From positions 1 through 26,486 of IMG/VR virus record IMGVR_UViG_3300042294_003245: DNA of 26,486 bases, one strand, 5' to 3'. Made by a program: the position numbers and the translations under genes. This DNA is from a virus. The notes under the pieces are model-generated. The model was not told the DNA's origin, searched no databases, and worked only from the letters and a program-made list of their open reading frames with translations. Positions 2,452 to 24,568 of this stretch are shown here, piece after piece. Within the stretch, counting starts at the first letter, position 1. Every line of letters starts with the position of its first letter.

Positions 2452-2463
2452 CCCCCCACTGGT
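2452..2463 (+). repeat. Dispersed 12-mer CCCCCCACTGGT, copy 1 (intergenic)
   Basis: Exact copy, and the only one outside a gene. It directly follows the stop of the single-strand-binding gene and abuts the hairpin at 2466-2495. Its C-run could pair with the G-run of the left arm of that hairpin. Confidence 0.9.
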
Positions 2464-2465
2464 GA

Positions 2466-2495
2466 AGGGGGCGGGGCCCACAAGCTCCGCCCCCT
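2466..2495 (+). terminator. GC-rich hairpin, probable terminator of the recombination operon
   Basis: A 12-base-pair stem (left arm 2466-2477, right arm 2484-2495) encloses the 6-base loop CCACAA. One pair is G-U when read on the plus strand; on the minus strand it would be a C-A mismatch, so the structure fits plus-strand RNA. It lies 22 bases after the stop of the single-strand-binding gene. The following tract is only weakly T-rich (AACTTT), so termination may be incomplete or assisted. A smaller 7-bp hairpin follows at 2522-2538. Confidence 0.6.
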
Positions 2496-2583
2496 CCAAC
2501 TTTCCACTCCCACAGGGGGTCGGAGGTGCATCGCCTCCCTCCTCATCGGACAGGTCTGACTGTCTCGGCCTGAAAGAAGCGCG

Positions 2584-3123
2584 ATGGATCGTCCCCCGCA
2601 CGAGCTTCCGACCCCCTACGTGGAGCAGAAGACCAACGCCAGGTTGAACGACCTGGTGAACTCGCCCAGGCCCTGGCATCTCCCGGTGCCCCTGAGGGTG
2701 AAGCATTCCGGATTTACGGACCTCGGAATCCATGCTCCGGTTCCGACCCCGAGACCGCCATGCTTTACCCTCAAGGTCATCGGCACAGCCGATATCTTGA
2801 CCTACCCCGGAGGCAAGCACTGGTTCGTCCAGACCGTGTGCCTGCCCGACGGAACCATCCCGGAAGATCCGTTCGCAGGAGAGCCGCCGCACATTCGCGT
2901 GGGTGGCGGCACCTGCAAGGGCATCTTCACCTTCTCGTCGAAGGGCCTGGGATCCATGCTGCACGTCGACGTGACCCGTGCAGTCATTGCGGGGCTGGCG
3001 GATCAGGTCCAAAGGTCTGAGCCTGACTCAAGGATCCTGATCCGCCTGCTCCCCCGCTACGTCCAGGGCAGCATCCGCTGGTTCCCCAGCCACCGCTGTG
3101 TCCAGCTCTGGAACCCCATCTAG
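2584..3123 (+). CDS. Hypothetical protein, last plus-strand gene
   Basis: This 179-residue protein has no motif I recognise. GC-rich third positions and a balanced composition in this frame support a real gene. The N-terminus is Pro-rich. The middle contains strand-like stretches such as CFTLKVIGTADIL and KHWFVQTVCLPDGTIP, and the C-terminus is basic and aromatic. An in-frame TGA about 25 bases upstream limits the start to the ATG at 2584, and the ribosome binding site is weak (GAAAG). It is separated from the recombination genes by the hairpin at 2466-2495, so it may be expressed by read-through or from a promoter I could not find. Its stop TAG (3121-3123) overlaps the stop of the convergent 1125-residue gene. 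Confidence 0.7.
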   Translation: MDRPPHELPTPYVEQKTNARLNDLVNSPRPWHLPVPLRVKHSGFTDLGIHAPVPTPRPPCFTLKVIGTADILTYPGGKHWFVQTVCLPDGTIPEDPFAGEPPHIRVGGGTCKGIFTFSSKGLGSMLHVDVTRAVIAGLADQVQRSEPDSRILIRLLPRYVQGSIRWFPSHRCVQLWNPI

Positions 3124-6100: not shown

Positions 6101-6497
6101 CCCGGAACAGCTGCATCGGAGCCAGCAGGCCCAGGGCCGCATGCAGGCCGCCCTGCTCCTTCACCATCGGGCTGAACCGCTCCGCCATGTCGAAGATCGC
6201 CTTGCCCGTGCGCGAGAGCGCCTGGCCCCCCACTGGTGTCGTGGCCGCCATCAGCAGCACAAACGGGTTCGTGACGATGTCGATGACGGTGTCGGTGACG
6301 GCGTTGCGGCCGACCCGGTTCTTCAGCCTGTCCGTGAACAGGTCCCGTTCCTTCGGGCTCAGGCCGTCGGAATCGGCCAGCGTCTGCAGCGCCCCCCTCA
6401 CCGTCAGCTCGTTGTCGAGCGCCTGGGTCAGCAGGACCATCGGCTTCTCGTAGCTGGTCAGCTGCTCGAACGGGAGGTTCATCGGTACCTGGCTCAT
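3120..6497 (-). CDS. Large putative internal or ejected virion protein
   Basis: This 1125-residue protein is the last and among the largest of the minus-strand cluster. The N-terminal 100 residues include a hydrophobic stretch, VTNPFVLLMAATTPVGGQAL, that could enter a membrane. The middle is mostly helical, charged and rich in Lys, Arg and Met. Near residue 790 lies the segment GNNPLMRQFLSFPVRSV, resembling the PLxRFG/LPD-type segments of very large phage proteins thought to enter the cell with the DNA; this is my inference. The C-terminus is helical and Gln-rich. No peptidase, transglycosylase or polymerase catalytic motif was recognised. The likely ribosome binding site is GGGAG within the leader behind a terminator-like hairpin (6520-6549), so this gene may be expressed at a lower level than the rest. 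It could instead be a tape-measure-like or other structural protein. Confidence 0.75.
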   Translation of the reverse strand: MSQVPMNLPFEQLTSYEKPMVLLTQALDNELTVRGALQTLADSDGLSPKERDLFTDRLKNRVGRNAVTDTVIDIVTNPFVLLMAATTPVGGQALSRTGKAIFDMAERFSPMVKEQGGLHAALGLLAPMQLFRGTALTPAVNAVTKGVGDLERQMLDTVGEPLRKVLEKHGLESLNHEMVRDPAKKDLAKRMNHALHASLNGMDKEYKSARAFLKKKKDGTWRMGMKETDVPRLVAQDMDQEIGRLGLTELRDAYRKALRDRYIKTHGDEAASAVAGKFVPDEQKLLRQVQGVKMGFKADGVLRGTGSEVTAMLMGPEVAMALSKGEIAEDQVMGFLKTIIEKHPEFYLPRNVIDVKGARSMADVLEQRRSRSLVATGSTLSRSSTLGNWDPDDLKEVYGMFGSTEAGEKMLAASQRKVQKMLDRGRVVRTYRVNAQESLSRYFRDTGFTHALYVQTADQFPMVQQAIKDTRGMAKPEKVKAMEGQLYRSPLMDDRKSLAQLLQEEHYLLEDRFAKESLEVVLRGAAGVQKVEHVATHMALIRGKEALGRMLESPIGKAMQKAGKWGQGLHDRLKGVVDSELSFGEAKGISGALARYFYVTHLGLNLSSVTMNMMQPLLMASTWGGLGNVMKAYTAAFKEMGGYISERVGKYGFKALTDEQHGDLIRKHFKYANVDGENLVQIGRDSFSTLDNISYKSEGLAGVARKESYFYDYPMKLFEKAEWLNRNVAAHTVENLYRGKGIDISKGSEGYLRMLRDVGENVSATQFGGSTLNTPMMFQGVGPFGRLGNNPLMRQFLSFPVRSVTSLTFDSPRLGGRGFVKGVGQDFVRGMGTSAIFYEIGKNTFGVDLSQGLYGSSLTQVVGGDRFFQDGNEYIPIPPVVDIPVNIVRGMLDPGQRELLQNNIPRLIPGGIALSRTLNLMPNLPESPVFGLPGALQKTYVDFKQRTPDGMVAVFKADGTLVDYQSPGMIFAKQLGVDMGKFRETGDFDGYLLKNREQIVEYRRRAIQALLSNEIPKMRSVQAEFERRFGIKLTISKDQLDEAMKNRVVSRTERIMDRMPPELRSQYQAMAAGRAEHLGLQSEDITGAETARQRMQNRRIEARPLTVEQQQIMQQESGFTPFSGY
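6226..6237 (+). repeat. Dispersed 12-mer CCCCCCACTGGT, copy 2
   Basis: Exact copy inside the 1125-residue gene. Read on the gene strand it encodes P-V-G-G near residue 90. Confidence 0.9.
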
Positions 6498-6519
6498 GCC
6501 TCAAGTATCTCCCAAAGAA

Positions 6520-6549: not shown

Positions 6550-6571
6550 CAGGAGGAAAAGAATGCCGTGA

Positions 6572-7015: not shown

Positions 7016-7023
7016 GGGGCACC

Positions 7024-7904: not shown

Positions 7905-10435
7905 CAGTACCTCATCATCAGCTCTGCGACACCCGGGCGACTCGGCGTGGCAAGCGCGGCCAACGCAGCCTCGTTGCCCCGGATCAGCGAGTCCATCGCC
8001 ATGTTGCCAGTATACTGCTTGTTGAGCTCGTCAATCTGAGCCTGCCGCTGCACGGCCGCGAGATCCGTCATGCGCTGCATCGCGCGGATCTGCTCCTTCT
8101 GCATCATGCTCTGGCCCATGCCGCCACCCACGGCACCGAGCGACTGCATGACCCGGAGCCTGCGCTCGTCGGCCTCGTCGATCGTCTGACCCTTCAACGC
8201 GCTCGCGATCTCATAGGCCCCGTACACCGCCGCAAGCGGCCCAAGGAACCGCAGCGCCCCGGCCCCAAGCCGTCCCAGCCGTCCGACCTTGGATGCCGCA
8301 CCTTCAGCCGCCCCCGCTGCACCTTCAGCCGCAATGGTCGCACGGTTCGCAGCCACCTGCGCCTCGTCCGGAAACTGAGGAAAGATCCCTCTCGGAACCG
8401 CTTGACGAATCTCTCCGGTATCGAGCGTGGGGCCCATGACCCGGCCCGCCAAAGATTCCGTGGGGCCCATGATCCGGCCCTCCGGCACAGCGTTGCCGAA
8501 CGGTCCAGCCGGACGCGGGTACATTTGCCGCTTTGAAACCTGAGGAGCCTTTGGAGGACGCGACATGGATCGCTGGCCACCAGAAGTCCACTTGTTCGCC
8601 CAACTCAACTCCGACTTCGGAAGGTCCTCAAGCTTCGACACGCTCAGGCCCTTGGCCCGGGCTGCCTTCAGCAGACCCTCTTCCGCCTCCGGCGAAATGC
8701 GCCCAAGGCTCGACCTCAACTTGGACGCTTCCTTCTTCGACAGCTTCTCTGCCGTCGACGCCGCTGGAGCCGCCGCCTCGGGAGCCGCCGGAGCCGTACC
8801 CGCCAGTGCGGGCTTCTCCCCACCACCGATCCCCGACGTCGCGATCTCCGCCGCACCGCCTGCAGCCGTCGCAGCGCCCGGACGCTCAGCCGCCGCCGGA
8901 GCAGGAGCCCCGGTCGAAGTGGCCTTCTTCGCCGCCGCAGCCTCTGCCGCGATCTCTTCCTGGCGCTTGGCGACATACGCCTTCAGGTCCGGAACCTTGC
9001 TTTCCGGAATGGCGGCAATCAGCCCCCGCTGGTTGGTTGCCGGAGTATCCACACTGATGAGCCCGTTCTCGACGAGCAGCTGCTTGAGCTCCCGGTTGTT
9101 CTTGAAGCCAGAGACTTCCCGAATCGCCCGGACACTCTGGTTCTTCCGAAGCTCGAAGCCCCGCGGATCCTTGGCGTACTTCTCGCCAAGCGTAGGCCCG
9201 AGCTCCTTGCGCCGCTGCTCGGACCACGGAAGCGGCATGTTCTTGTCAGACGTCGCAAGCAGTGAACCGCGCGCACGACCCTTGTAGAAGAACTCGTCGT
9301 GGCTGTTGGCAAACGACTGCGCGAACGGCGTCGGATCTCCTGCGCCCTTGACGGCATCGGTCAGCTTGGAGACCCGGTCGTCCAGCTTCTCAAGAAGCAT
9401 CTGCGCTTCCGCGTTCAGCTTGAGGTCCGGGATCCGCTTCACCTCGTCCCGAAGCAGCAGCAGCTCTCCGACCTTGCGACGGTCGATGTCCGTGAGCTCG
9501 ACCTTGTCGCCCAGGAACTCGTTGGCCCGCTTCAGCACGTACCGCTCATCGAGACGCGCAAAGTTGCGGCGCTTGACCTCGTCGATGCTCAGCGGCGTGG
9601 AGATGCCCCCCACTGGTGCCCGGCCCCCACGACGCCCAGCCTTCTCCGATTCGGAGGCACCAAGCTTCAGCGGCGATGCCGGACCTTCGGTCTTCGGCGC
9701 ATTGTTCATCCGGACCCGGGCCCTCGCGCCGGGCTTGTTGGCCTCTCCGGCCAGCCACTCGCGCATGACCTTCCGGTTCTCCTCCGTATCCGGAATCTGA
9801 TCGAGCTGCTTGGCCTTGACACCCTTCAGCTTCAGAATCCTGTCGCCGTCGACACCGAGATCGGCCGCAGCCTTGCGGAACTGTGCAGCACCCTCGCTGC
9901 CCAGCAGCTTCGGGCCCGCAGGCGCACTTGCCGCCGGAGCGTCTGGAGCCCGGACAAACCCAGGATCCGGAACCGCGGGGGCTGCCGGAGCCGCTGCCGT
10001 CCCCGTTCCCTTCTTCGCCTTCTCTCCCTTGGGTGCCTCAACCACCGGAGCCGCCGGAGCCGCAGGAGCTTCAGCCTTCGCCTTTGCCGCAGCCTCACGC
10101 TCGGCCTGGAGCTTTGCAAGTGCAGCCTGTTCTTCGGCCTTCTGGGCTGCAGCCGCCTGACGGGCCCGGTCCTCGGACGCCGCCATCTCCTTCAGCTGCT
10201 CTTCGGTCAAGTCCTTCTTGGCCGCAGCACCCGCCGCCTTCACAGGTGCCGGAGCCGCCACCGGAGCCGCGGGTGGAGGACCAACAAGGAACTTTCCGGA
10301 AGCCGCATCCTGATGCACTTCCCCAGCCAACAAGAGCTTCTTCAGCTCCCCGATGGCGGACTTGTTCTTCTGGTTGACTGCCCGATCAACCAGAACCTCC
10401 AGATCCTTCTGATCCAAGCCCTTTTTCTCTGCCAT
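7904..10435 (-). CDS. Ala/Pro/Lys-rich large virion protein with C-terminal hydrophobic helix
   Basis: This protein has 843 residues from the ATG at 10435, which is preferred over an upstream TTG because GGAGG lies at the right distance. Residues about 1-50 are a charged helix. Residues about 55-190 are low-complexity Ala/Pro/Lys/Glu sequence with repeated AAP and APA units, coded by recurrent CCGGAGCCG tracts. A charged helical middle follows. Another Ala/Pro-rich linker lies near residue 510-570. Near residue 655 the short unit GR(I/V)MGPT occurs twice. A hydrophobic helix near residue 725-750 (GALRFLGPLAAVYGAYEIASAL) could cross a membrane. Elongated, flexible and partly membrane-active proteins of this kind in podoviruses are often ejected with the DNA. 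That role is inferred; there is no enzymatic motif. Confidence 0.72.
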   Translation of the reverse strand: MAEKKGLDQKDLEVLVDRAVNQKNKSAIGELKKLLLAGEVHQDAASGKFLVGPPPAAPVAAPAPVKAAGAAAKKDLTEEQLKEMAASEDRARQAAAAQKAEEQAALAKLQAEREAAAKAKAEAPAAPAAPVVEAPKGEKAKKGTGTAAAPAAPAVPDPGFVRAPDAPAASAPAGPKLLGSEGAAQFRKAAADLGVDGDRILKLKGVKAKQLDQIPDTEENRKVMREWLAGEANKPGARARVRMNNAPKTEGPASPLKLGASESEKAGRRGGRAPVGGISTPLSIDEVKRRNFARLDERYVLKRANEFLGDKVELTDIDRRKVGELLLLRDEVKRIPDLKLNAEAQMLLEKLDDRVSKLTDAVKGAGDPTPFAQSFANSHDEFFYKGRARGSLLATSDKNMPLPWSEQRRKELGPTLGEKYAKDPRGFELRKNQSVRAIREVSGFKNNRELKQLLVENGLISVDTPATNQRGLIAAIPESKVPDLKAYVAKRQEEIAAEAAAAKKATSTGAPAPAAAERPGAATAAGGAAEIATSGIGGGEKPALAGTAPAAPEAAAPAASTAEKLSKKEASKLRSSLGRISPEAEEGLLKAARAKGLSVSKLEDLPKSELSWANKWTSGGQRSMSRPPKAPQVSKRQMYPRPAGPFGNAVPEGRIMGPTESLAGRVMGPTLDTGEIRQAVPRGIFPQFPDEAQVAANRATIAAEGAAGAAEGAASKVGRLGRLGAGALRFLGPLAAVYGAYEIASALKGQTIDEADERRLRVMQSLGAVGGGMGQSMMQKEQIRAMQRMTDLAAVQRQAQIDELNKQYTGNMAMDSLIRGNEAALAALATPSRPGVAELMMRY
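8427..8480 (-). repeat. Tandem duplicated unit coding GR-(I/V)-MGPT
   Basis: Two near-identical stretches beginning at 8427 and 8460 (33 bases apart) share GTGGGGCCCATGA and nearby bases. They encode two copies of GR-x-MGPT, 11 residues apart, in the linker of the 843-residue protein. Confidence 0.6.
9606..9617 (+). repeat. Dispersed 12-mer CCCCCCACTGGT, copy 3
   Basis: Exact copy inside the 843-residue gene, which encodes P-V-G-G there on its own strand. Confidence 0.9.
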
Positions 10436-10437
10436 GG

Positions 10438-12075
10438 TCAACCTCCGAACCTGGCCGCAAGGGCCTCAAGAGCCGCAGCTTCGTCTTCCGCAATCTGGCC
10501 CTGGCCACGGGCCATGAACTGCCCGGTACCAAGCCCGAGCTCGCGCTCGATCTCGCCCGTCCGCAGCGCGCCAGCCTCAGCCTCGGACGCCATGGCCCGA
10601 AGCGCAGCCTCGTACTCCTGCGGCGTCATGTCTCCAGTATCGCCAATCAGAGCCATCATCTCCTGCACCTGCTGGTCCGCCATTCCGGTTCCGCGCAGCA
10701 TCTGCACCAGCTCCTCGGTCCGCGGATCCTCCATCAGGCCGTAGAGCGAATCCGCCTTCCGCGTGATCCCCGCGATGTCGAACTTGGAGGCATCCTCGAT
10801 GGTGCCCCCCACTGGTTGCATCAGCTTGGAGTCGTCGGCCACGGCCTGCAGGATGTCGGCCAGACGGCCCACGCCGTCCGTGGTCTCAAGCAGCACCTTC
10901 TGCAGACCCGCTTCCTTCTGGTCCATGCCGAACTGCAGCAGCAGCTCCGACCCACCCTCGCCGACGCCTTCAAGGCCGTCGAGCATCAGCGCCGTGATCT
11001 GCTCGTCGCCCATGCCCATCTGCCGCAGCTTCCCGAACCCCTGCGCGATCTTTGCCTTCACGCCCCCGACCGACTCGTCGTTGAGGTTTCGAGCTTCAGG
11101 GTTCAATCCCGCCAGGATTGCCGCACTTCCAACCATCTCCGTTGCAACTACCGCGGCCTCCGCCTTCTTGCCCGAATCCAAGCCAAACGCATCGCCGTGC
11201 CTGCTGAACGCATTGTGCACGATCGCTCCGGCCATTGCCGCCGGGCTCGTCTGCAGGTCCGTCATCCGCTTCTTCATGGCCTCGGGGTCGCTGTACCCGA
11301 ACATGCTTGACGCCAGATTCTCCATGAGGATCTTCGTGCCTGCGATCGGAGCTGCAATGCCCGCAGCCTGGTAAGCAAGACCCGGGCCTCCAACAACCTC
11401 CGACTGCATTCGTCTTGCAATGTCGTTGACGAAGCCGCCGTCGAGGCCGTCGTTGAGCATGGCATCCGTGAGTGCCCGCTGGGCTGCGTCCTGCGCGGCC
11501 TGCCGTCGGGTCGCGACAGCCTCTCCGTAGGCCGTCAATCGGGACCCGACTTCCTTCATACGGTCGCCCTTCATGCCCTGAGACCTGGCGAGACCGTGCT
11601 GGGCAGCGGCCATCATGCTCTTGATCTTGACCATCTGGGCGTCGAGCTGACGACGCTCGGCCCTCAGACCGGGCCTGTTGCCGCTGTCGTCTGCCTCGGA
11701 GATCAGCTTGGCGTTGGCGGCCTCGCGCTTCGCCTGCAGCCGCTGGAGCTCGATCGCCATCAGCTTCTCGGCCTGGGCCTGCTCCCGGAGGAACTGCTGC
11801 TGTGCGTCGAACTGCCTCTGGTTCTGCGCAAGCTCCTGGGTCTGCAGATCCGCCCGACTCTTGTTGAGCGCCCGGTAGTTCGCAGCCTCGGCACCAAGGG
11901 CGCGGACCTGCATCCGCTCCTCCTGCTGCATCTGCTGACCCCGCTGGGCCAGCTGGCGCAACGCAAGATCCTGCTCCATCTTGGCGCGCTGGTTCTGACC
12001 CATCAGGGCGATGTTGCCCTGCGCAGACTCAAGGCCTGCCGCGAACTGCATGCTGTTGCTCGGGATCTGAGACAT
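10438..12075 (-). CDS. Putative internal virion protein, coiled-coil
   Basis: This 545-residue protein starts at an ATG overlapping the upstream stop (TGATG), with GGAGG six bases ahead. Residues about 25-160 are strongly Gln/Ala/Glu/Arg-rich with heptad-like spacing, consistent with a long coiled coil (for example RQLAQRGQQMQQEERMQVRAL). The middle holds Ala/Gly-rich helices, including AYQAAGIAAPIAGTKILMENLAS, weakly hydrophobic. The C-terminus is acidic and helical. No Cys residues are seen. It ends two bases before the start of the 843-residue gene. Composition and position suggest an internal core or ejection protein of a podovirus-like particle, but no family was recognised. Confidence 0.7.
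   Translation of the reverse strand: MSQIPSNSMQFAAGLESAQGNIALMGQNQRAKMEQDLALRQLAQRGQQMQQEERMQVRALGAEAANYRALNKSRADLQTQELAQNQRQFDAQQQFLREQAQAEKLMAIELQRLQAKREAANAKLISEADDSGNRPGLRAERRQLDAQMVKIKSMMAAAQHGLARSQGMKGDRMKEVGSRLTAYGEAVATRRQAAQDAAQRALTDAMLNDGLDGGFVNDIARRMQSEVVGGPGLAYQAAGIAAPIAGTKILMENLASSMFGYSDPEAMKKRMTDLQTSPAAMAGAIVHNAFSRHGDAFGLDSGKKAEAAVVATEMVGSAAILAGLNPEARNLNDESVGGVKAKIAQGFGKLRQMGMGDEQITALMLDGLEGVGEGGSELLLQFGMDQKEAGLQKVLLETTDGVGRLADILQAVADDSKLMQPVGGTIEDASKFDIAGITRKADSLYGLMEDPRTEELVQMLRGTGMADQQVQEMMALIGDTGDMTPQEYEAALRAMASEAEAGALRTGEIERELGLGTGQFMARGQGQIAEDEAAALEALAARFGG
10805..10816 (+). repeat. Dispersed 12-mer CCCCCCACTGGT, copy 4
   Basis: Exact copy inside the 545-residue gene, coding P-V-G-G in M-Q-P-V-G-G-T. 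Confidence 0.9.
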
Positions 12076-13244
12076 CAGAATCCTCCGGACGGGAAGAAGT
12101 TAGGAGCGGGCATGCCTTCGATGCCCGGCGTGGTCGCCGCCGCAAGATATCCGGTGAGCCCCGCGAACAAGCTGACAAACTGCCGCGGATTGGCGCGGAT
12201 CATCTCGGCCACGCTCTGACGGCCCTGCATCTCGAACATCACGGACTGCTGCAGTGCGCTCGCGTAGGCCTGCTCGCCCATCGCCCGGTAGTTCGCCCCG
12301 AGCTCCGCCATGCGCTGCCCCAGGTTCGCAGCCTCCAGAGTCTGTGACCCGAAGCTCGTCCCGACCTGGGCCCGCAGCTGTCCTCCGGCCATCGCCGTCT
12401 GGCTCTGGCCCATCGTGATGTTGGCGAGGTTGCCCTGCATCGACGCGACCGCGTTGTTCATGTTGCTGAAGATCCCGTTGACCGTCTGAGACACCTGGTC
12501 CTCGGTCTGCGAGTACAGCTGCTGGGTCGCGGCCTGGCGTTCCGCCGAGGTCATCATCGTCCCGTCCGGGTTCATGCCCGCGTTGATCTGCTGCATCGCC
12601 GACTGGACATTGCGCCGCAGTCCGAACGCCGCGTTGGCCGCGTCCTGGGCGCTCGTGTCCTTGAAGTCCGAGATCGCCTGCTCGTAGCCCTGCCGTGCCT
12701 CGGCCGCGAACCGATTGGCCGACGCGATGTCCTCGTCGACCCGGCCCATCTGCTTGTCCCGGAACTGCCCGAAGTCCGCCATCGTCTGACGGCCCTGCGC
12801 CTCCAGGTTGCCCGCGATCCCCTGCATCGCCGTCCGCTGTCCCGCTCCGGACTGCTGGATCGTCTGCGAGCCGCGCCCGATCAGGCCCTCCATCAAGCCG
12901 ATCTGCTGCTCGTTCCGGCGGTACATCTCGTTCATCGCCGCCTGCTGCCGCGAGATGTCAGCGCCCATCGTGTTCGCCAGCGCCGGGAACATGGGCGAAT
13001 AACCCGAAGCCCGGGCCGGACCCATGCCCGGCGGCATGCTCCGCACCGGGTTGATCGTCCCGCCGCCAATCTGCGCCTGACCGCCGGGTGCGTAGGGCTG
13101 GTAGTAGCGCTGGGGCCCCCCACTGGTCTGGTCGAACTGGACACGCTGCGGCTGCCGGGTGCGGGCCTGGTTGCGGCCGGGCTGACCGAACGGGGAACCG
13201 AAGTCGGAGAACTGGGACAGGGGGTCGTTCGTCTCGAATGCCAT
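12075..13244 (-). CDS. Gln/Ala/Met-rich putative virion protein
   Basis: This 389-residue protein has a start overlapping the 1258-residue gene's stop as TGATG, with AGGTAG upstream. Residues 1-80 are Gln/Pro/Gly-rich and probably disordered. Residues about 100-330 are helical and rich in Gln, Ala and Met (QQAAMNEMYRRNEQQIGLMEGL, QSAMQQINAGM). The last 40 residues are more hydrophobic: VSLFAGLTGYLAAATTPGIEGMPAPNFF. This layout is common among internal or tail-associated podovirus proteins that unfold for ejection. There is no recognisable enzyme motif. It is followed, with a one-base overlap, by the 545-residue protein of similar composition, so the two may assemble together. Confidence 0.7.
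   Translation of the reverse strand: MAFETNDPLSQFSDFGSPFGQPGRNQARTRQPQRVQFDQTSGGPQRYYQPYAPGGQAQIGGGTINPVRSMPPGMGPARASGYSPMFPALANTMGADISRQQAAMNEMYRRNEQQIGLMEGLIGRGSQTIQQSGAGQRTAMQGIAGNLEAQGRQTMADFGQFRDKQMGRVDEDIASANRFAAEARQGYEQAISDFKDTSAQDAANAAFGLRRNVQSAMQQINAGMNPDGTMMTSAERQAATQQLYSQTEDQVSQTVNGIFSNMNNAVASMQGNLANITMGQSQTAMAGGQLRAQVGTSFGSQTLEAANLGQRMAELGANYRAMGEQAYASALQQSVMFEMQGRQSVAEMIRANPRQFVSLFAGLTGYLAAATTPGIEGMPAPNFFPSGGF
13116..13127 (+). repeat. Dispersed 12-mer CCCCCCACTGGT, copy 5
   Basis: Exact copy near the start of the 389-residue gene. Here the gene reads the motif as T-S-G-G, a different frame from the P-V-G-G copies. Confidence 0.9.
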
Positions 13245-16200
13245 CAGCTACCTCGAATGCTCGTGGTTCGCTCCACGGAGGAGATCGTGCCGCGCACGGA
13301 ACATGCCAACAGTCTGTAGTCCAGGTCGGGACAGAAGATGCGGATGCCCGGGCTCAGGGAGTTCCCCTTCACGCCGTATCGCCCATCCGTAGCATCGGAC
13401 CCAAAGGCCGCGTACACCAGGCCTTCCCCGTTCTCCACCGATCCGTAGTAATCGCCCGACGTGTCCAGGGTCTGGGCCGTCGTCAACGGGGTCTCGTCCG
13501 TGCCCGCGTACATCGTTCCGACGAACCTCGCCAGCGGCTTGTTCTGCGCGCCCGTGAGATCGTACACCAGTGGGGGGCCCGACACGTCCGTGAACGCACA
13601 GCCGATGCTGGCCGCCGTCTTCATGCGGAAGAAGTCCGCCAGCGAGAACACCTGGTTGACCTCGTTGTTGAGACCGAGGTTGTGGCCGACCCACTCGAAG
13701 TAGACCGGGCTCGCCCCCAGGATGTCCCCAGAGGTCAGGTTGAGGGCCCAGGCCCCCGATCCGGTGACGTCCACGAACACGGTCGTGGTGTTGTTGGACA
13801 GGACCCGGACCTTCTTGCCGATGTGCTGCTTGTTGGCGGTCGAGTACACCAGGTACATGTAGGTGTACAGGTACGCGCCGCTGACCGCGATTGTGGCCGA
13901 GGTGCCAGTGGGGGAGATCGGGAACGAGTTGTTCGCCGGGTTGAACGCACCCGTCACGATCACGCGGGAGTCGCCCTGGAAGTCGAGATGCGTGATGCGG
14001 CGGCTCCCGTTCCACGCGGCCGCTGCACCCGAGATCGTCTTGGTCCGCTTGTTGTCGGTCAGGTACACACGGGGCCCGGTCCAGCTCCAGCCGCTCAGTC
14101 CGCTTCCGCCCTGCACGTTCATCAGGAACATGCAGCGACGGGTCAGGCTGTTCGAGTACTCGGAGCCCGTGAAGTTGTCGGGCCACGCGCCCGCGGCCGC
14201 ATGCGCGAAGTTCATGTCCACGAGCTTCGTGGTCTTCGCGGATCCGAACCACATGCAGTACGCCTCCTGCTGCACCGGGTTCAGCAGGAACAGGGTGTTC
14301 ATCGAGGCGTCGTAGGCGACCTGGATGCTGGCGTGGTCGGACTTCCACTCCGAGATCACGACGCTGTTCAGGTTGCGAATCTCGTCAAGCTGGGCCTGCG
14401 AGTCCACGGCCTTGAGTCCGTGCGGGCTGACGTAGTAGGCCACCGAGCTCACGACGTCCACGGCCTTCGGATTGACGATGCCGTAACCCTCGTACATCTC
14501 CTGGACCCGGATGAACCCGCCGCTCTTGCGGATGTGGAACACCCGGTCCTTGCCGATGCCGAGCGCGTTCGACCCGATCTTCGCGAACGTCACGGCCTCG
14601 TTCGTCGGCAGCGTCGGGTTGTGGCGGTTGAACGGCGGAAAGAGCTCGGGGCTGAACTCCTGCAGGCTGGACCACCGCATCTCGCCGAGGCCCTTGTTCA
14701 CATCCTCGACACGCAGTGCATCCTCGGACGAGTCCGGTTGGGCGTCGATGCGGGACACCAGCATCGTGTTGTCGTAGAACAAGGCCGTGCCGCCGAACGG
14801 CATCTTCTGGTCGAAGATGCTGCGGTCCGTGTACGGGGCCTGGTACACGAGCTGCTTGTCCTCAAGCTCGTAGTAGTAGAGCGCATGCCTGCGGTCGGTG
14901 CTCGCCGGGTCGAACGTGCGCCCGGTTCCGTTGAGGCACGTGTGGTAGTCCTCAAGCTCGATGATCGCGTCGAGGAATGGAAGCCCGGCGACCATCGTGC
15001 CGCCCGCGTCCTGGATCTTGACGCTGCGGTACACGTACATCAGGTCGTACTTGGCCGAGTCGTACACGATCTCGATTCCGACGTACCTCTCGCGCTGCAC
15101 GTTGGTCGTGCTGGTCATCACGCGGAAGTCCTCGCCACGCGCCTGCGCGACCTCGCTGAACGCGCTCTTGCGTCCGGTCTTCGAGTCCACGAGCACGTAC
15201 CCGAAGCTGTAGTCACCGGGCTCCAGCTTGCGGGCGTTGAACCGATTCTCCGTCACGAAGAACGAGGTCGGGCTCGTGAACGTGAAGTTGCAGTCCCGCC
15301 TGCGGCCCTCGATGCGCCAGAAGTACTTCGTGTTGTACTCCAGCCGCGAGTTCGGGAACAACGCGCCCGGCGAGTACCGGGTGTCCGTGATGTCCGTGGC
15401 GACCCGGGACGCAGCGGCATTGATGTTGGCGTTGTTTTCCTTCGTCAGGTACAGCGAGTAGACCAGGTTGTTGGGAGAAGCCGGAAGGGCCTCGCCGTCG
15501 ATGTGGAACGTGGACCAGTCGAGCTCCGGCGTGACGCTCACGTTGATCTGGCGGTACGCGGGACTCGAAAGGGTGACCCGCAGCCCGGCGTTGTACGCGA
15601 CCGTCGTCGGGTTGCACGTGGTGGCGGGGAGCGCGGGGTCGTAGGCCACGTTGCCGGGCTGTGCCGGAGCCGCCGGAGCCGTGGGCATCAGGTCGGCCTG
15701 GCAGATCCCGGTCTCCTGGTTCGGGAACAGCGGAGCACCGTAGGGCGTGGTGTCCGACATCACGATCTGCGCCGCCGCAGGCCTGTTGGCCCCCTCGATC
15801 GACGTCAGGGTTCCCGGGATGTTCGCGCCCTCCGGGCTCTTGAGGGTCGGCTGCAGGCCCGGACCCGGGATGTCCGACAAGCCCGTGACGCCGATCAGAC
15901 GCTCGGTGAAGAACGTCTTGCTCGAATACACCACGGTCAGCTTGGGCCGGATCATCGGGTTGGCCTGGCGCTTCGACGCCAGGTACACCACGTTCGTGCC
16001 CGACGAAAACGCGCGAAGCAGCAGGTCGAGTTTCGTCGTGAACGGCTGCGGCCTCGTGCCCGATGCACCCAGACACTTCTGCAGCAGATTGACAAGCACC
16101 GCCCCGGTGAACACGATCCGGCCCTTGTACCCGGCGGCAATGACCTTCGACTCGGGCGGGAACGTTCCGTCGTTGAACGTGCCTCCCGCGGTCTGCCAGG

Positions 16201-17020: not shown

Positions 17021-17050
17021 GTTGGACCTCTCGTCCTAGTATCGCAGGGT

Positions 17051-17464
17051 TCAGGGCCATTTGTTCCGGGGACACGTCGCGGCAGGCATCTTCGCCTTCA
17101 CCGACAGCTCGGCCCGGGCACCCTTGCCGCAGCCACACGACTTGCACCAGCCGAACTCCTTGGGGTTCGCCGACCTCAGCAGGTCCGGGCACTGCGAACA
17201 CGCCTCCAGCCGACGCTCCACCTTGTCGTCCGTGATCGACGAGATCAGCGCCGAGGCCTCGGCCTTGATGTAGGAGACAGCCTTGGAGAGGAGGCCCCCC
17301 ACTGGTTTCTCGGTCTGGCGGACCGTGAGCTCCACCTTGCCGGGATCCCGCTCGGGGCACTGCATGCAGATGCCGATGCTGGGCTGGCCGCCGTACAGCT
17401 TCTTCTGGCAGCATCCGCCGCCGCTCACGCCGCAGGGCTCCCAGCTCTTGCAGAAACCTTCCAT
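17051..17464 (-). CDS. Cysteine-rich zinc-ribbon-like small phage protein
   Basis: This protein has 137 residues from the ATG at 17464, which overlaps the previous stop in TGATG; the longer open frame upstream is shadow. The C-terminal half has the spacing C89-x2-C92, C107-x2-C110-x-C112 and ends in ATCPRNKWP with C131. This matches a type of small phage zinc-ribbon protein that I recall as ending in CP-x(2)-KW. The N-terminal half carries a second Cys cluster (C5, C11, C18, C19, C33, C36). Metal binding is therefore likely. Its role is unknown; it sits between the very Cys-rich 728-residue protein and the tail protein, and could be a tail assembly factor. It contains a copy of the 12-mer. 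Confidence 0.78.
   Translation of the reverse strand: MEGFCKSWEPCGVSGGGCCQKKLYGGQPSIGICMQCPERDPGKVELTVRQTEKPVGGLLSKAVSYIKAEASALISSITDDKVERRLEACSQCPDLLRSANPKEFGWCKSCGCGKGARAELSVKAKMPAATCPRNKWP
17295..17306 (+). repeat. Dispersed 12-mer CCCCCCACTGGT, copy 7
   Basis: Exact copy between the two Cys clusters of the 137-residue gene, coding K-P-V-G-G-L. Confidence 0.9.
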
Positions 17465-19650
17465 CAGCTGACCCTCACTTCCGCGCCGTTGTTGCCGGAC
17501 CAGAATCCAGGACCCTTGCACTCAAGGCCCCCGAGGACCGTGTACTTCGGCCTGTACACGCCGACCGGGCTGCAGCTCTGGTGGGCCTGCCACTCCAGGA
17601 GCCACAGCGGGGGCGAGGAGATTGCCCCGATCACCGAGTTGGTCTCTGCGGTCAGGCCGCAGATGTCGTAGTCGCCGAAGGCACAGACCTGCAGGATCAT
17701 CGTGTAGTTGAAGTTGTCGCCGCCGCAGCTGAAGTAGGCATTGCAAGTCTCGTTGGGCACGGACATCTGGGCGATGCCGTTGTTGCATGCCGGAAGACCG
17801 CCCGATCCACCGACGATGGACCCGTTGGTGGCCGTGAACCCTTGGCAGAATGGGGTGCACGAACTGGAAGATGCGTGAAGCCCGCAGCTGTTGTAGTTGC
17901 GCAGCTTTCCGGGGTAGCAGCCTGCGGTGGCCGGAACGTAGATGCCGGAGAACGGCGGGGACTGCAGCGGGGTGGGACACGCGCAGCAGCTGATGTAGGC
18001 CGGATCACTGGCCTGGCACGAGGCAAGGCATGCGGCCAGATCGGACTCGAAGATGTTGATGCAGCCTGGGAACAAGGTGCAAGTTGGGTCGATGTAGAAG
18101 TCGAACGCCGGAAGATTCACCGCTGACCCGGAGCGCATCGCCGTGCATCCGAGGTTCGGCGACGAGCTGGTGTACCAGGGGTTGATGGTCTCGGTGTGGT
18201 CGTACTTGTTGCGGTACCTGCGCCAGAACGGATGGCCGCGCTCCACGGGTTCGGCCCCGAGGTACCTGTAGTAGTCCGCGATTCCTGTCGGAGTCAGCGA
18301 AGCCAGTGGGGGGTACGTCGGCAGGTAGTCCCACATGAAGCAGGAGTCCCACGCCGCGGGAACCGAGCGGAACACGCTCTCAAGCCCGACGTTGATGCCG
18401 ACCGTGAACGAGCTCGATGCAAGGCTGCACTGTGGGTCGACGACGATCGGAAAGTCGCCGCTGATCGAGATGGCCGATGGACCGTGCTCGCAGTACGACA
18501 CCCGGTTCACGGGATTGCGGGCGTTGAAGCAGTGGCACTCCTTGTCGGAGTAGCACCAGTCCTGCGGGTTGAGGGTGACCACGGCCGTGATGCGCCAGCT
18601 CTCGTCGCCCGCGTCGAAGGTCGCGGTCTTGTTGAACGTGATCGAGGCCGAAGGCTTGTAGACGCTTCCGGTCGTGGGCATCCTGGGCCCGACGTCGAAG
18701 AGCATCCGAAGTCGGCCGGAGGTCATGCAGACCCAGAAGTCATTCCAGGTCCCGATGCCGACCGTTGAGTCGAGACCCATGGCCGTCAGCGCCGACAGCA
18801 GGTTTGCCTCGATCAGGTCGATGCAGCACAGAACATTGTCGCCGCCGTTGAGGTACCCGCCTGGGCCGCATCCGATCAGGCTTCCGTTGCAGTCGTTGCC
18901 GGGATCGTTCGGCAAGATGACGATGGGGTAGTCCATACACACGCCCGACTGCACGGAGCCCGTGGTCGTGGGGCATCGGTCGACGTGCGAGATCGTGCCG
19001 CATGCCGACACCTGGGGGTACATGCTGGAGGGGATCGCGCTTGTGGTCAGCGTGGTGCTGAACTCCGCGAAGCGCGGTGCCGCCTTCCGGTTCTCCTCGG
19101 CCCACCAGATCGGCGCGGAGCCGAAGCTCTGCGGGTCGTTGGGGGAGGAGCAGGCCGTGCCGCAGTTGATGCCAAGGCCACAGGGAAGTTGGCCCGGGAT
19201 CGCGTCGGCATACGGATTATCAGCAGGGTCCAGGTCCGTGGCTTGATCGGGGCTGATGCCTCGGAACTCCATGGTCCCGGACCATGTCCACAGGTAACGG
19301 TCCGTGTAGACCGTGCGCTTGCAGTTGGGTGCAGCTGCGATCGTCCCGGTGTCGGTGCAAGATGCGCTTGTCGCAAGGCCTGCACCTGCCGGACATGCGC
19401 CCGGAGTGCACTCTTCCTGGGCGAGGGTCCTCTTGGTGATCGTGAGGAAGATCGACCCGGCGACCTTGCCGCGCTTCGAGATCGTGTTGTGCCAGGCGGT
19501 GTGGTAGGTGCCTGCGTACTTGCGGGGGGTCCGAGGACGTCCGACCGAAATGTACTCCGCAACCCTGGAGGGGTAGCCCGGATCGCAGACTTGCAGGGCC
19601 TCGCATGCAGCGGCGATTCCACAGCAGCATCCTGATGGCGTGATGGTCAT
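17464..19650 (-). CDS. Very cysteine-rich large hypothetical virion protein
   Basis: This protein has 728 residues from the ATG at 19650, which shares ATGA with the stop of the upstream gene; an in-frame start further upstream would overlap that gene by 43 bases and is not preferred. I count about 45 cysteines (roughly 6 percent), spread over the whole length and opening with SGCCCG. They come in irregular pairs and clusters such as DWCYSDKECHC and SCCACPTP, not one regular repeat. Between them lie beta-like Ser/Thr/Gly/Asn-rich stretches and many aromatic residues. No signal peptide, transmembrane helix or catalytic triad was recognised. Such a Cys load suggests disulfides or bound metal; a tail spike or receptor-binding role would fit the position before the tail protein, but this is inference. 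Confidence 0.72.
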   Translation of the reverse strand: MTITPSGCCCGIAAACEALQVCDPGYPSRVAEYISVGRPRTPRKYAGTYHTAWHNTISKRGKVAGSIFLTITKRTLAQEECTPGACPAGAGLATSASCTDTGTIAAAPNCKRTVYTDRYLWTWSGTMEFRGISPDQATDLDPADNPYADAIPGQLPCGLGINCGTACSSPNDPQSFGSAPIWWAEENRKAAPRFAEFSTTLTTSAIPSSMYPQVSACGTISHVDRCPTTTGSVQSGVCMDYPIVILPNDPGNDCNGSLIGCGPGGYLNGGDNVLCCIDLIEANLLSALTAMGLDSTVGIGTWNDFWVCMTSGRLRMLFDVGPRMPTTGSVYKPSASITFNKTATFDAGDESWRITAVVTLNPQDWCYSDKECHCFNARNPVNRVSYCEHGPSAISISGDFPIVVDPQCSLASSSFTVGINVGLESVFRSVPAAWDSCFMWDYLPTYPPLASLTPTGIADYYRYLGAEPVERGHPFWRRYRNKYDHTETINPWYTSSSPNLGCTAMRSGSAVNLPAFDFYIDPTCTLFPGCINIFESDLAACLASCQASDPAYISCCACPTPLQSPPFSGIYVPATAGCYPGKLRNYNSCGLHASSSSCTPFCQGFTATNGSIVGGSGGLPACNNGIAQMSVPNETCNAYFSCGGDNFNYTMILQVCAFGDYDICGLTAETNSVIGAISSPPLWLLEWQAHQSCSPVGVYRPKYTVLGGLECKGPGFWSGNNGAEVRVS
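18302..18313 (-). repeat. Dispersed 12-mer, copy 8 (reverse, one mismatch)
   Basis: CCCCCCACTGGC on the minus strand, differing from the consensus only in the last base. The 728-residue gene reads it as P-P-L-A. Confidence 0.75.
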
Positions 19651-20441
19651 GGCGGGCAGGTCACCGTCGTCGGGTTGGCCGCGGAGAACCACGGCTTGTT
19701 GTTGACATCGAGGGCCATGAACACGATGGACAGAGGATACGACTTCCTCGTGACCGTCACACCAGTGGGGGGCGTGTTTCCACCGTTGTTGTCCACGGTC
19801 TGCTCGTACATGTTGTGCGCCAGACCGTAGGTCGCGGAGGTCTTTCCGCCTGTGGCGGCGACGTATCCGAAGCCCGTGGTGTTGCGCACGACTTCCTGGA
19901 AACCATACTCGTAGCAGTCACGACCTGCAACAACTGTCACCGATCCGACGGAGATGAGCTCGGCCATGAACGGCGTGGTCGGACACGGGCACCCGGAGCT
20001 GGTGGGGATCCCGGTTCCGGGGTCGTCGACGGTGGGGGCTCCGGTGCATCCGGTCTCGCGGCATTCCACGAGGTCGATGTAGACGCCGTCAGGGTCCTCG
20101 ACGCACTGGCCGTTGACGCACGAGTACCGATTCTCCTGGCCTGGGTTTCCGCCGGAGCCGCCGTCGCCACCTTCGCCGGGGTCTGCGTATCCACCGCCGC
20201 CGATGCCGTCGCCGTTGATCGAGTCGATCGCAGGGATGGCGGGGCCGATCTCGTTGTTGTAGCTGCTGAGGACCGACGGCCCGGTCTGCACGAACCCGCG
20301 GATCTGTGGGAACTCCTGGCCCTCGTGGATCGTGACCTGCTGGAATCCGTTGGCCCGGAGAGACCGCATCGCAGCCGAGAAGCCCGGGAACAAGGCCTCG
20401 AACTCGCGGCGCGAAAGGTCTTGTTGCGGGGTCTCTGCCAT
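19647..20441 (-). CDS. Hypothetical structural protein with Gly-rich linker and Cys motif
   Basis: This 264-residue protein has an ATG overlapping the upstream stop in TGATG. Three parts are visible: an acidic/helical N-terminal part (1-60), a Gly/Asp-rich linker (about 74-100, GDGIGGGGYADPGEGGDGG), then a small Cys motif YSCVNGQCVEDPDGVYIDLVEC-x4-C (C108, C113, C127, C132). This C-x4-C-x13-C-x4-C pattern, with a Gly-x-Tyr in the middle, is one I recall from surface and virion proteins of marine bacteria and phages. A beta-rich C-terminal domain follows. It probably belongs to the tail or neck and may bind a surface. The ATGA overlap ties its translation to that of the 728-residue Cys-rich protein. 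Confidence 0.7.
   Translation of the reverse strand: MAETPQQDLSRREFEALFPGFSAAMRSLRANGFQQVTIHEGQEFPQIRGFVQTGPSVLSSYNNEIGPAIPAIDSINGDGIGGGGYADPGEGGDGGSGGNPGQENRYSCVNGQCVEDPDGVYIDLVECRETGCTGAPTVDDPGTGIPTSSGCPCPTTPFMAELISVGSVTVVAGRDCYEYGFQEVVRNTTGFGYVAATGGKTSATYGLAHNMYEQTVDNNGGNTPPTGVTVTRKSYPLSIVFMALDVNNKPWFSAANPTTVTCPP
19761..19772 (-). repeat. Dispersed 12-mer CCCCCCACTGGT, copy 9 (reverse)
   Basis: Exact copy on the minus strand near the 3' end of the 264-residue gene, read as T-P-P-T-G, another reading frame again. Confidence 0.9.
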
Positions 20442-21328
20442 CAGAACACGTAGAGGTTCTTGTTGTCGACGGTGCCGCCCGAGAAGCGCTTTCCGGTCCT
20501 GGAGTTCATGTTGCCCAGGGTGTCATAGGCGGTCTTGATGGCCTGGCGGTACGCCAGCATCAGCGACTGCATGTGGGCCTGCGTGATCTTGCGGCCCGTT
20601 CCCGCGCGCATGGCCGCGCTCAGGGAGATCGCGTCGATCATGGGCTCCATCAGGAACGGAACGACCTCGTAGCTGTAGGACCCGGCCGCATTCGTTGGGG
20701 TGGTCCGCAGGGTGGCCACGCGGGTCGCGGCGTCGTAGGCCGAGACCTGGCACTCGTCCGTGATGTTGGTTCCGAAGATCCGGATGTAGCTGCCGACGTA
20801 GGCGTTGGGCCGCTTGTCGAGGGATCCGAGCAGGCTGCCGGACGAGTGCAGCGTGAACGTGCCGTTGGCGTTGCGGACTCCGTGAGCCGCGTTCTCGTAG
20901 TGCACCGCGACGTCGCCCGAGGGCACGTACAGGATCGTGTAGTTCTTGGCCTCGGTCGGGTAGGGCTTGAACGAGATGATGTTGCCCTCGATCGACCAGC
21001 CCGGACCGTACACGTTGAACTCGCTCCGGGGATGGAAGTCCTCCATGAACACGCCGCTGTCGGCCACGGTGGTGCCGACCCGGAGGATCTGACGGACATG
21101 CGGAGGCAGCTGGTAGTACTGGGTCCCGGCGGCCACAGTGAGCGGCAGCACGGCCACGACCTGGGCGTCCGACATCATCGAGACGCGCGAGATCACGTCG
21201 CTCATCGAGCTCGACAGGAAGAAGCGGACCAGGTAGTTGTCGTCGTACTTGGCGTCGAGGTCGGGGTCGTCCAGGTAGTGGCGGACCTTCTCGCAGTACG
21301 TCTTGATGATGGATCCCGTTGAGTGCAT
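20441..21328 (-). CDS. Head-tail connector/adaptor-like protein
   Basis: This 295-residue protein follows the small 183-residue gene by three bases, with a weak ribosome binding site, so coupling is likely. The N-terminus is helical (IIKTYCEKVRHYLDDP). The central part has the beta-rich pattern typical of phage head-tail adaptors and necks: LPLTVAAGTQYYQLPPHVRQILRV, then GPGWSIEGNIISFKPYPTEAKNYTILYVPSG. The C-terminal helical region (AISLSAAMRAGTGRKITQAHMQSLMLAYRQAIKTAYDTLG) also fits this class. The position soon after the capsid gene supports a part in joining the portal to the tail. Exact family (gp6-like or tail-tubular-A-like) cannot be decided by eye. Confidence 0.6.
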   Translation of the reverse strand: MHSTGSIIKTYCEKVRHYLDDPDLDAKYDDNYLVRFFLSSSMSDVISRVSMMSDAQVVAVLPLTVAAGTQYYQLPPHVRQILRVGTTVADSGVFMEDFHPRSEFNVYGPGWSIEGNIISFKPYPTEAKNYTILYVPSGDVAVHYENAAHGVRNANGTFTLHSSGSLLGSLDKRPNAYVGSYIRIFGTNITDECQVSAYDAATRVATLRTTPTNAAGSYSYEVVPFLMEPMIDAISLSAAMRAGTGRKITQAHMQSLMLAYRQAIKTAYDTLGNMNSRTGKRFSGGTVDNKNLYVF

Positions 21329-21331
21329 GGT

Positions 21332-21883: not shown

Positions 21884-21901
21884 GGAACTCTCCAAAGAAT
21901 A

Positions 21902-21929
21902 GGGGCCACCCCATTTACGGGATGGCCCC
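21902..21929 (-). terminator. Terminator-like hairpin after the major capsid gene
   Basis: An 11-base-pair stem (right arm on RNA GGGGTGGCCCC) with a 6-base loop forms on the minus-strand transcript and is followed by TATTCTTT. One pair is G-U in minus-strand RNA and a C-A mismatch on the other strand, so direction is clear. It lies between the capsid stop (21957) and the ATG at 21883, only 18 bases before that ATG. A partial terminator right after the capsid gene is known from T7 (T-phi), where it lowers expression of tail genes. Confidence 0.75.
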
Positions 21930-21956
21930 ATTGTATCGTGTGTCACGCTGGGTGCA

Positions 21957-23645
21957 TCAGACGATGTTGCCCGAGGTCATGTAGACGCGGTCTTCGGTGA
22001 TGCCCGTGAGCTTCATGCCGTTGACCTGATCCGGGACCAGCTGCATGCGGATGCGGCCAGGCATCTGGCTCGCCTGGGTGACCAGGGTCGGGCCAAGCGA
22101 CGGAGTCGTGTAGACCGGGAGCTGGTTCGTCGAGGTTCCGGTGATCGCGCCCGCGACGAACTCGAACGGAACGTATGCGTCCGCCTGGCTCATCTTGGAC
22201 ATTCCGGCCGGGCTCGGCGGAACGTACTTCTTCCAGTTCTTGCCCCCGAGCTTGATGCCGTACAGGGTGCCCTGCTCGACGAAGCGCGAGGTGTGACCCT
22301 TGTAGGTCTTGCCCTCGAAGCTGAAGCTGAAGCCATCGGCCTGGCCCTCGTTCGTGATCGAAGCGACCCGGTTGGTGCGGTCGATCCGGTACTGGCCGAT
22401 CTTCTGCGACTCGTAGGCGCTCCACACGCCCTCGGACGCGACGAGCGTGTCAATCGTGTGACCGAGCGGCTCGAACGCCGAGTGGACACGCTGGAGGTAG
22501 CGCTTCAGGTTGTACTCGGTCAGCACACCGTTGACGTTGTACTTGAAGCTCTTGAACTCCGGACGCTCGTTGACGTCGATGAAGTCGCTCGAATCCGACT
22601 CGGCTCCGAGGAGCTTGGTCGCATCGGTCGCGGTCTCGAAGCCGTTCTTCAGCCAGCTGTTGATGCCCGCGATGCCGACGAACGTGTTCGAGCCGACGCC
22701 GTTTCCGTTGATCGTGGCGTTCGCGTACACGATGAAGCCCGCATCGAAGTCTGTCTGAGCGGCATACGTGGTGGTCACGGCCGTTCCCGACACCTGGGCA
22801 CCTGCGGAATCCAGGAAGCCCGTGTTCGGATCCGTGGCCGTGACGAGCACGACCTCGTTAGTCAGCGGGTCGATGTTCTCGACGACCAGCTGAATCCGCG
22901 AGGCACGGGTCTGAGATCCGACTGCCGCCGTAGGCGCAGTGCTATCGTTTGCCCGAAGACCCGTCGAGTACACGATGTCCACGCGCTGGCCACGGGCGAA
23001 GCGGTGGGTCGCCTGGTTGCTCGGGTTGAACTTGATCTGGTAGTAGGCCGAGGTCGAGGTTCCGGTCGGACCCGTGGAAGCCGTCACCGAACGAACCATC
23101 GTGCCGCTCAGACCGCAGATGCGGTACGAGTCGTTCTGGCTCAGGTACCAGTAGTTGCACAGGGTGTGCGCCATGTTGCGGGCGAATGCCGTGAGCTTCG
23201 GGGCGATGACCTGGTCGATGAGCGCCGGGGTCGCGTCGGCCTGCTTCTCACCGAGGGTGATCATCAGGTTGGTGACGAGCGAGCGCATCGGGATCGCCAG
23301 TCGGTACGCGGTGGCGTTCGGGCCCTCAAGCGGGCTCGGGTACGCCTGCGAGATCGACTGCTGGTGCATGAGCGGGCCAAGCGACGAGGTGCCGCTGCCG
23401 TAGAGATCCTGATCGCCGAACGAACGGCCGGACTCGATCACGCCCGTGAGGCTGCCCATGAAGAGCTTGGTGATCTTGAGGTCGCGACCCATGTCGCCGG
23501 AGTTGCCGATGCCCTGGCTGGTGACGACGTTTTCGCGCCACACCGGATCGAGTCCGGCCAGGAACACCTTGAGGGACTTGTTGAGGACTTCCTGAATGCG
23601 ATTTGACTGACGGTCGAAGATCGACCCTGCTGTTGCGTTTGGCAT
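21957..23645 (-). CDS. Major capsid protein (probable)
   Basis: This 562-residue protein lies directly downstream of an acidic scaffold-like gene and two genes after the portal, the usual place for the major capsid protein. The N-terminus is helical (DRQSNRIQEVLNKSLKVFLAGLDPVW). The middle is beta-rich with many Thr, Asn and Gly. It includes conserved-looking stretches such as MITLGEKQADATPALIDQVIAPKL and YLQRVHSAFEPLGHTIDTLVASEGVW. There are no signal peptide, membrane helix or enzyme motifs. The ATG is preceded by GAAGGGG, 17 bases after the scaffold stop. A terminator-like hairpin lies just after the stop, as expected for a gene needed in excess. The gene lacks any copy of the 12-mer. Capsid assignment rests on order, size and composition. 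Confidence 0.75.
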   Translation of the reverse strand: MPNATAGSIFDRQSNRIQEVLNKSLKVFLAGLDPVWRENVVTSQGIGNSGDMGRDLKITKLFMGSLTGVIESGRSFGDQDLYGSGTSSLGPLMHQQSISQAYPSPLEGPNATAYRLAIPMRSLVTNLMITLGEKQADATPALIDQVIAPKLTAFARNMAHTLCNYWYLSQNDSYRICGLSGTMVRSVTASTGPTGTSTSAYYQIKFNPSNQATHRFARGQRVDIVYSTGLRANDSTAPTAAVGSQTRASRIQLVVENIDPLTNEVVLVTATDPNTGFLDSAGAQVSGTAVTTTYAAQTDFDAGFIVYANATINGNGVGSNTFVGIAGINSWLKNGFETATDATKLLGAESDSSDFIDVNERPEFKSFKYNVNGVLTEYNLKRYLQRVHSAFEPLGHTIDTLVASEGVWSAYESQKIGQYRIDRTNRVASITNEGQADGFSFSFEGKTYKGHTSRFVEQGTLYGIKLGGKNWKKYVPPSPAGMSKMSQADAYVPFEFVAGAITGTSTNQLPVYTTPSLGPTLVTQASQMPGRIRMQLVPDQVNGMKLTGITEDRVYMTSGNIV

Positions 23646-23662
23646 GACTGGACCCCTTCAGG

Positions 23663-24568
23663 TCAGATTGCGGATTCACCGGGAGACGTTGCCAGGGCCC
23701 GCTTGATGGTGTCGCTCGTGAAGCTCTTGACCTGCGACTCGATGTCGCTGATGGTGGCTCCCGGCTTGTACTCAGGATCAGGCGCTGGCTTGCTGCGCAG
23801 AATCTCCTGCGCATCGAATCCGGTGACCGTTTCCGAAGACCGACCGAGCTTGTCGATGTCTCCGATTACCGACCGGAAAGTACCGAGCACGGGCTCGGTG
23901 GCCTTGTCGACCTCTTCGGACATCCAGGAGTCCTCGAAGGTCCCCGCCGCTGCCCGGCGCGACTGCATGCGCTCAAGCGCCCGCTGCTCCAGCTGTGCCC
24001 GGAGAGTCTGGGTCGCCTGATTCACACCTTCGTCGCCCCGAGAAGAACGGGCGCTCTCGATTAGCTTCTGGATCTCGGGGTTGCTTTTCAACACCCGGTC
24101 CAGGTTCGCGTTCAGGTTCTCGCGGAGCTCGCGCACCCGCATCCGGTGAAGCTCGGCCCGCTGGGCCTCAAGCTCCTGCTTCAGCTGCTCTTGATCGCTC
24201 ATGGAATCCTCGTTGGGCCCCCCACTGGTTTCATCGGTGTCGTCCTCCAGGTCCGGAAGGTCGATCTCCTCGACCTCGTCGTCCGGATCCTCGGGGGCCT
24301 GCTGCGGCTGGGAGTGCTGTCGGGCCGCGCTGATGTAGCCTTCGATCTGATCGTCCTCGTAGCCGAGGTTCTGCAGGATGTTGCGGACGGCGGTCTCCCG
24401 GCGGTCGGGCTGGACGTTCGCCTGGAAGAGGGTTCCGACCTCCTCAAGATCATTCTGCAGCGTGTCGTTGATCTCCAGGGCGTCCTTGAGATCCTTGCGG
24501 CTCTGCATGAGATCCGCCAGGGTGACCTCGGTTCCGTCGTCGAGCGTGATGAGCGTGTCGGGGTCCAT
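23663..24568 (-). CDS. Scaffold-like acidic protein
   Basis: This 301-residue protein is strongly acidic, rich in Glu, Asp and Gln, with few aromatic residues. Residues about 85-122 form an acidic linker (PEDPDDEVEEIDLPDLEDDTDE). Residues about 124-200 are a predicted coiled coil (SDQEQLKQELEAQRAELHRMRVRELRENLNANL). The C-terminus is more basic and includes RSKPAPDPEYKPGATISD. This is the usual make-up of phage scaffolding proteins, which guide capsid assembly and are later removed. It lies between portal and capsid genes, and its ATG directly abuts the portal stop (TAAATG) with AAGGA as ribosome binding site. A capsid protease activity is not indicated. Confidence 0.78.
   Translation of the reverse strand: MDPDTLITLDDGTEVTLADLMQSRKDLKDALEINDTLQNDLEEVGTLFQANVQPDRRETAVRNILQNLGYEDDQIEGYISAARQHSQPQQAPEDPDDEVEEIDLPDLEDDTDETSGGPNEDSMSDQEQLKQELEAQRAELHRMRVRELRENLNANLDRVLKSNPEIQKLIESARSSRGDEGVNQATQTLRAQLEQRALERMQSRRAAAGTFEDSWMSEEVDKATEPVLGTFRSVIGDIDKLGRSSETVTGFDAQEILRSKPAPDPEYKPGATISDIESQVKSFTSDTIKRALATSPGESAI
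24218..24229 (+). repeat. Dispersed 12-mer CCCCCCACTGGT, copy 10
   Basis: Exact copy in the acidic linker of the scaffold-like gene, read as T-S-G-G by that gene. Confidence 0.9.

Follow-up and report, generated by a model that had tools for sequence, protein, structure and literature searches.

An exact DNA word dispersed over both strands in a family of uncultured tailed phages

The word in the window and in related phages

The 9-bp word CCCCCACTG is a functional, sequence-exact DNA signal of the phage family represented by the window, by which we mean the whole stretch of DNA analysed, a complete IMG/VR record of 26,486 bp. The functional unit is this core, and the 12-mer CCCCCCACTGGT, on which the original prediction was based, is its extended form in the window sublineage. 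Nine exact copies of the 12-mer are present in the window, against 0.01 expected; dinucleotide shuffles of the window (n = 100) gave a mean of 0.01 and never reached nine copies, in agreement with the earlier chance estimate of about 0.01. The core occurs 11 times, seven times on the plus strand and four times on the minus strand, and 10 of the 11 sites are in coding sequence. A shuffled-codon null, which had been proposed as a check, was far exceeded: synonymous-codon shuffling within the window genes (1000 runs) yielded a mean of 0.17 and a maximum of 2 cores, compared with the 10 observed in coding sequence.

On the plus strand, exact 12-mers are located at 2452..2463, in an intergenic position directly past the stop of a 188-aa gene (retained by 17 of 17 aligned relatives), and, antisense to the surrounding gene in each case, at 6226..6237 in a 1125-aa gene (retained by 7 of 20 aligned relatives), 9606..9617 in an 843-aa gene, 10805..10816 in a 545-aa gene, 13116..13127 in a 389-aa gene, 17295..17306 in a 137-aa gene and 24218..24229 in a 301-aa gene (core retained by 34 of 34 relatives). 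On the minus strand, the exact copies at 13566..13577, in a 1258-aa CBM96 (putative tail fibre) gene (retained by 6 of 18 relatives), and at 19761..19772, in a 264-aa gene, lie in the sense orientation, as does the copy at 18302..18313 in a 742-aa gene, CCCCCCACTGGC, which has one mismatch to the 12-mer and an intact core. The original prediction had placed these ten copies correctly; however, it overlooked an eleventh, TCCCCCACTGGC at 13904..13915 on the minus strand, because both end bases of the 12-mer differ there, although CCCCCACTG is intact. Its G+C content of about 62% for the window was also slightly low (64% measured).

The word is read in several frames and on both strands, and this, together with the excess over the synonymous shuffle, rules out a conserved peptide, as had been argued at the outset. 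A mobile or interspersed repeat was ruled out as well: the similarity ends with the word, and the flanks are near background beyond about +10, which bears out the earlier statement that no flanking similarity is seen.

A search with three window proteins retrieved 44 related viral IMG/VR records, the largest of 51-54 kb, and CCCCCACTG was present in all 45 records including the window. The family total was 587 copies against 3.8 expected under a third-order model, at a density near 0.6 per kb, and a reversed-word control was near zero in the same 45 records. All one-mismatch forms of CCCCCACTG together numbered 182 against 170 expected, which is background, and the word therefore looks to be recognised in an all-or-none manner, unlike degenerate transcription-factor sites. 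This exactness bears on a further reading, in which the word serves a naturally competent host as a DNA uptake sequence (USS/DUS type). An uptake sequence would account for an exact 9-mer core at this density and for its even spacing, and some inverted pairs of the word resemble uptake-sequence terminators; however, near-miss sites are usually enriched around uptake sequences and are not enriched here, and it is normally the host genome that carries uptake sequences, whereas this word was found in a phage family. We regard this as the least probable of the readings considered.

The phages bearing the word form an uncultured family of tailed phages, whose assemblies measure about 45-56 kb and include several circular ones; in the wider family, several assemblies have terminal overlaps of 99-127 bp, as in circular assemblies. 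The family encodes TerL, an SU10-like adaptor, DNA polymerase A, an SF3/D5-type helicase and UDG, and genes for a RecB-like exonuclease, a Sak4 recombinase and an ERCC4-type nuclease are conserved in it. The helicase protein matches the helicase half only of primase families, and thus no phage primase domain was found.

Conservation and replacement of the word

Selection acting on DNA conserves the word. When sequences of 75-80% identity were aligned in pairs, 64% of aligned sites retained the core, compared with 15% for permuted words (60 words of the same composition as the core). Core retention was about 3-12 times that of the permuted words at 65-85% identity, and the gap persisted from 65% to 90%. 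Some sites were retained in every aligned relative (35 of 35, 34 of 34, 17 of 17, 15 of 15 and 13 of 13), and others were lineage-specific. At the 11 best-conserved sites, the two longest invariant runs include one that equals or contains the word, and an alignment of 23 genomes over the gene containing window site 24218 has exactly CCCCCACTG as its longest invariant run. Loss of the motif in close relatives without compensation had been named as an argument against function; instead, the word is retained in relatives, and losses at some positions are compensated by others.

Each clade swaps in its own related word. Among distant relatives (TerL identity of 47-59% and G+C content of 40-59%, plus a wider set), CCCCCACTC replaces the core in genomes of 40-43% G+C, and the other words found were GTCCCCCCACG, TCCCCCCAC[T/C], TTCCCCGCT, TCCCCACT, ACCCCTCCAC and CCCCCACTACC. 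The density of the word in these relatives stays near 0.3-1 per kb; in the wider set, some loci, mostly short, are without a clear word. Site positions were common to different clades in 15 of 528 comparisons, against 2 expected. Since positions mostly turn over between clades, it is mainly the distribution of the word (density and spacing) that appears to be selected, rather than individual loci.

The bases flanking the core also vary within the window's clade: the window sublineage has C before and GT after the core, and most other members have A before and G or A after it. On the portal tree, the form with C at position -1 has at least three origins. In a Mantel test of flank preference against individual genes, it was the CBM96 tail gene and a 260-aa gene, not replication genes, that gave the better-supported correlations. 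A tie between flank preference and tail genes was nevertheless dropped, because the trees do not separate tail genes from other genes. That flank preference differs between close phages could suggest a phage-encoded reader.

Orientation and spacing of the copies

Copies in each orientation are evenly spaced separately from those in the other, which points to a directional reader. Compared with near-word positions (one genome per clade), both the plus copies (Fisher p 6e-8) and the minus copies (Fisher p 1e-3) were evenly spaced, and the spacing per strand had a low variance, at 1.9-3.3 kb for plus copies and 4.4-8.5 kb for minus copies. Spacing is a stronger signal than strand bias. The C-rich strand lies opposite the late genes in about 69% of copies (96 vs 43 pooled), the remaining 31% or so being on the other strand; for composition-matched words the figure is 62% (p 0.10). 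Within the window's clade, a bias of 66% is shared by near-words and permuted C-rich words, so that polarity there, being matched by base composition, is no independent evidence; strand bias as proof of directionality was downgraded on these grounds. In clades with TCCCCCCA, the strand bias was above the 50% background.

A site for a phage architectural or packaging protein, acting in DNA condensation, as a terminase small subunit or in a phage nucleoid, would fit the phage-wide distribution, the even spacing and lineage words that co-diversify with the phage. Such proteins usually tolerate degenerate sites, however, and one-mismatch sites are not enriched here; even spacing that is separate for each orientation also favours a directional reader. 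An architectural role is, in our judgement, fairly improbable. The low-variance spacing per strand would also be expected of lagging-strand start sites (primase or single-strand initiation) set at Okazaki-fragment distance on both strands, and the direction dependence of the word, its independence of transcription and the phage's own DNA polymerase A and primase-type helicase are in keeping with this. Known primases, however, use signals of 2-3 bases, and no primase domain was found among the phage proteins, as described above; we therefore consider lagging-strand priming improbable.

The orientation of the word is unchanged between early (+) and late (-) genes and thus does not follow transcription. 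This weighs against repressor stoperators or operators as in the cluster A mycobacteriophages. The stoperators of L5 and Bxb1 resemble the copies described here in that both are asymmetric sites of 9-13 bp, spread across about 50 kb of genome and with lineage-specific variants. The family word, however, shows no tie to transcription units, lies in coding sequence at all but one of the window sites and has no degenerate sites, and neither an integrase nor an immunity repressor was among the families listed in Pfam and PHROG scans of one 53-kb relative (25 of 39 PHROG families). A stoperator function is very unlikely.

Minus copies tend to follow plus copies on the right at a distance of up to about 1 kb, and in some cases the two form close inverted pairs; outside the family, inverted-pair matches were isolated pairs only. 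One inverted pair of cores, 18 bp apart, lies in a 120-aa late gene (at 21266/21284 in genome G034, at 31094/31112 in G001 and in eight other records); about 10 of 18 aligned relatives retain the two cores together. A divergent pair 33 bp apart, with the invariant spacer TCTCCTATCCCACGTGGTTCGTCA, lies in the DNA polymerase gene (at 10533/10566 in G022 (L070), and in G034 and G002).

Among published phage patterns, the closest is the 9-mer associated with localized single-strand interruptions in the virion DNA of LUZ24-like Pseudomonas phages, and a phage nickase could accordingly recognise the word, producing interruptions like those known from T5, phiKMV-like and LUZ24-like phages. The LUZ24-like motif, TACTRTGMC / WACTRTGAC, is an exact 9-mer with 13-14 copies in a lytic phage genome of about 46 kb that has two convergent gene sets; it is conserved in 60 relatives, varies between relatives and lies mostly in coding sequence, and all nick sites are on one strand, clustered toward one end (PMC3517423, PMC11780129). 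The family word is likewise an exact 9-mer, mostly coding, with lineage variants and no apparent role in transcription, and the conserved ERCC4-type nuclease would be a candidate enzyme. However, known nicked phages are interrupted on one strand only, whereas the word is divided 7 vs 4 between the strands of the window and about 31% of copies in the family are on the other strand, some of them at strongly conserved sites (13 of 13 and 19 of 35). Conserved inverted pairs 18 bp apart would, moreover, be nicked on both strands, and the word is evenly spaced rather than clustered toward one end. A nickase site thus seems quite improbable.

A possible Chi-like function, and the phages that carry the word

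An exact word that is regularly placed in each direction, lies mostly in coding sequence and is oriented regardless of transcription suggests directional reading of the DNA by a machine. Our best guess, held tentatively and with an inferred mechanism, is that the word is a Chi-like signal controlling exonuclease activity and recombination; of the candidates listed in the original prediction, this one fits best and stoperator-like immunity fits poorly. The reader would be a host helicase-nuclease of the RecBCD/AddAB type, or less likely one of the phage's own; entering at an end of linear or concatemeric phage DNA, it would read the G-rich strand (CAGTGGGGG in the window's clade). At the word, it would cease degradation and pass a 3' tail to recombination, a step for which the phage-encoded RecB-like exonuclease and Sak4 recombinase could serve. 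With regularly spaced copies on both strands, loss from any end in either direction would be limited, and the clade-specific words would reflect differing host enzymes. Chi reading by a phage-encoded AddB-like protein was considered unlikely from size alone (471-aa exonuclease).

Phages such as P1 carry Chi. The family word resembles Chi in being a dispersed, exact and over-represented word that is apparently directional, has lineage-specific variants and is G-rich on one strand in every clade. To our knowledge, regular spacing per strand is not a described property of Chi, and Chi does not predict minus copies near the right of plus copies or inverted pairs; the strand bias in the window's clade, which is not above composition, is a further difference. 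Known Chi words are G-rich and species-specific, for example GCTGGTGG, AGCGG and GAAGCGG, and those tabulated are 5-8 bp long (PMC5959072), compared with 9-12 bp for the family word. On its G-rich reading strand, the family word is similar to these; the word of the TTCCCCGCT clade reads AGCGGGGAA and thus contains AGCGG.

The word may instead be a phage-encoded 'self' signal, by which a nuclease/recombination machine of the phage would spare and recombine phage DNA while host DNA is degraded. Word and reader would then co-evolve, giving each clade a private Chi-like code; we consider this unlikely. If the word is Chi-like, the genomes of these phages spell out the recombination code of their uncultured hosts and would offer a way to read host Chi words and to help assign hosts; if it is read by the phage, it would represent a new self-recognition system. 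Either way, one exact word has been rewritten genome-wide several times in one phage family with its density kept, and such genome-wide replacement is a clear natural experiment in the change of DNA signals.

Searches that included two scans of genome contigs found no host or close cultured isolate of the family. Microcystis phage Mwe-JY08 shares one protein with it and has zero copies of the word, and a literature search for the word itself returned unrelated sequences only. Most of the large late-gene proteins encoded on the minus strand of the window at 3120-26467 (e.g. those of 1125, 843, 545, 742, 562 and 632 aa) had no PHROG match, and no Pfam match above the cut-off where they were scanned. 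In G022, the region 9725-12282 (L070) holds a cassette encoding DNA polymerase A together with a small HTH protein and an ERCC4-type nuclease; the HTH protein, which is weakly like D5-type regulators, is present in 7 of 12 genomes. An argument for unidirectional replication from GC skew at fourfold sites was abandoned, as it is confounded by early and late expression. In rotated genomes, the GC skew switches sharply from about +0.25 to -0.25 some 8-10 kb after TerL, at the helicase gene and after, and then climbs slowly round the genome, a pattern that may mark a replication landmark.
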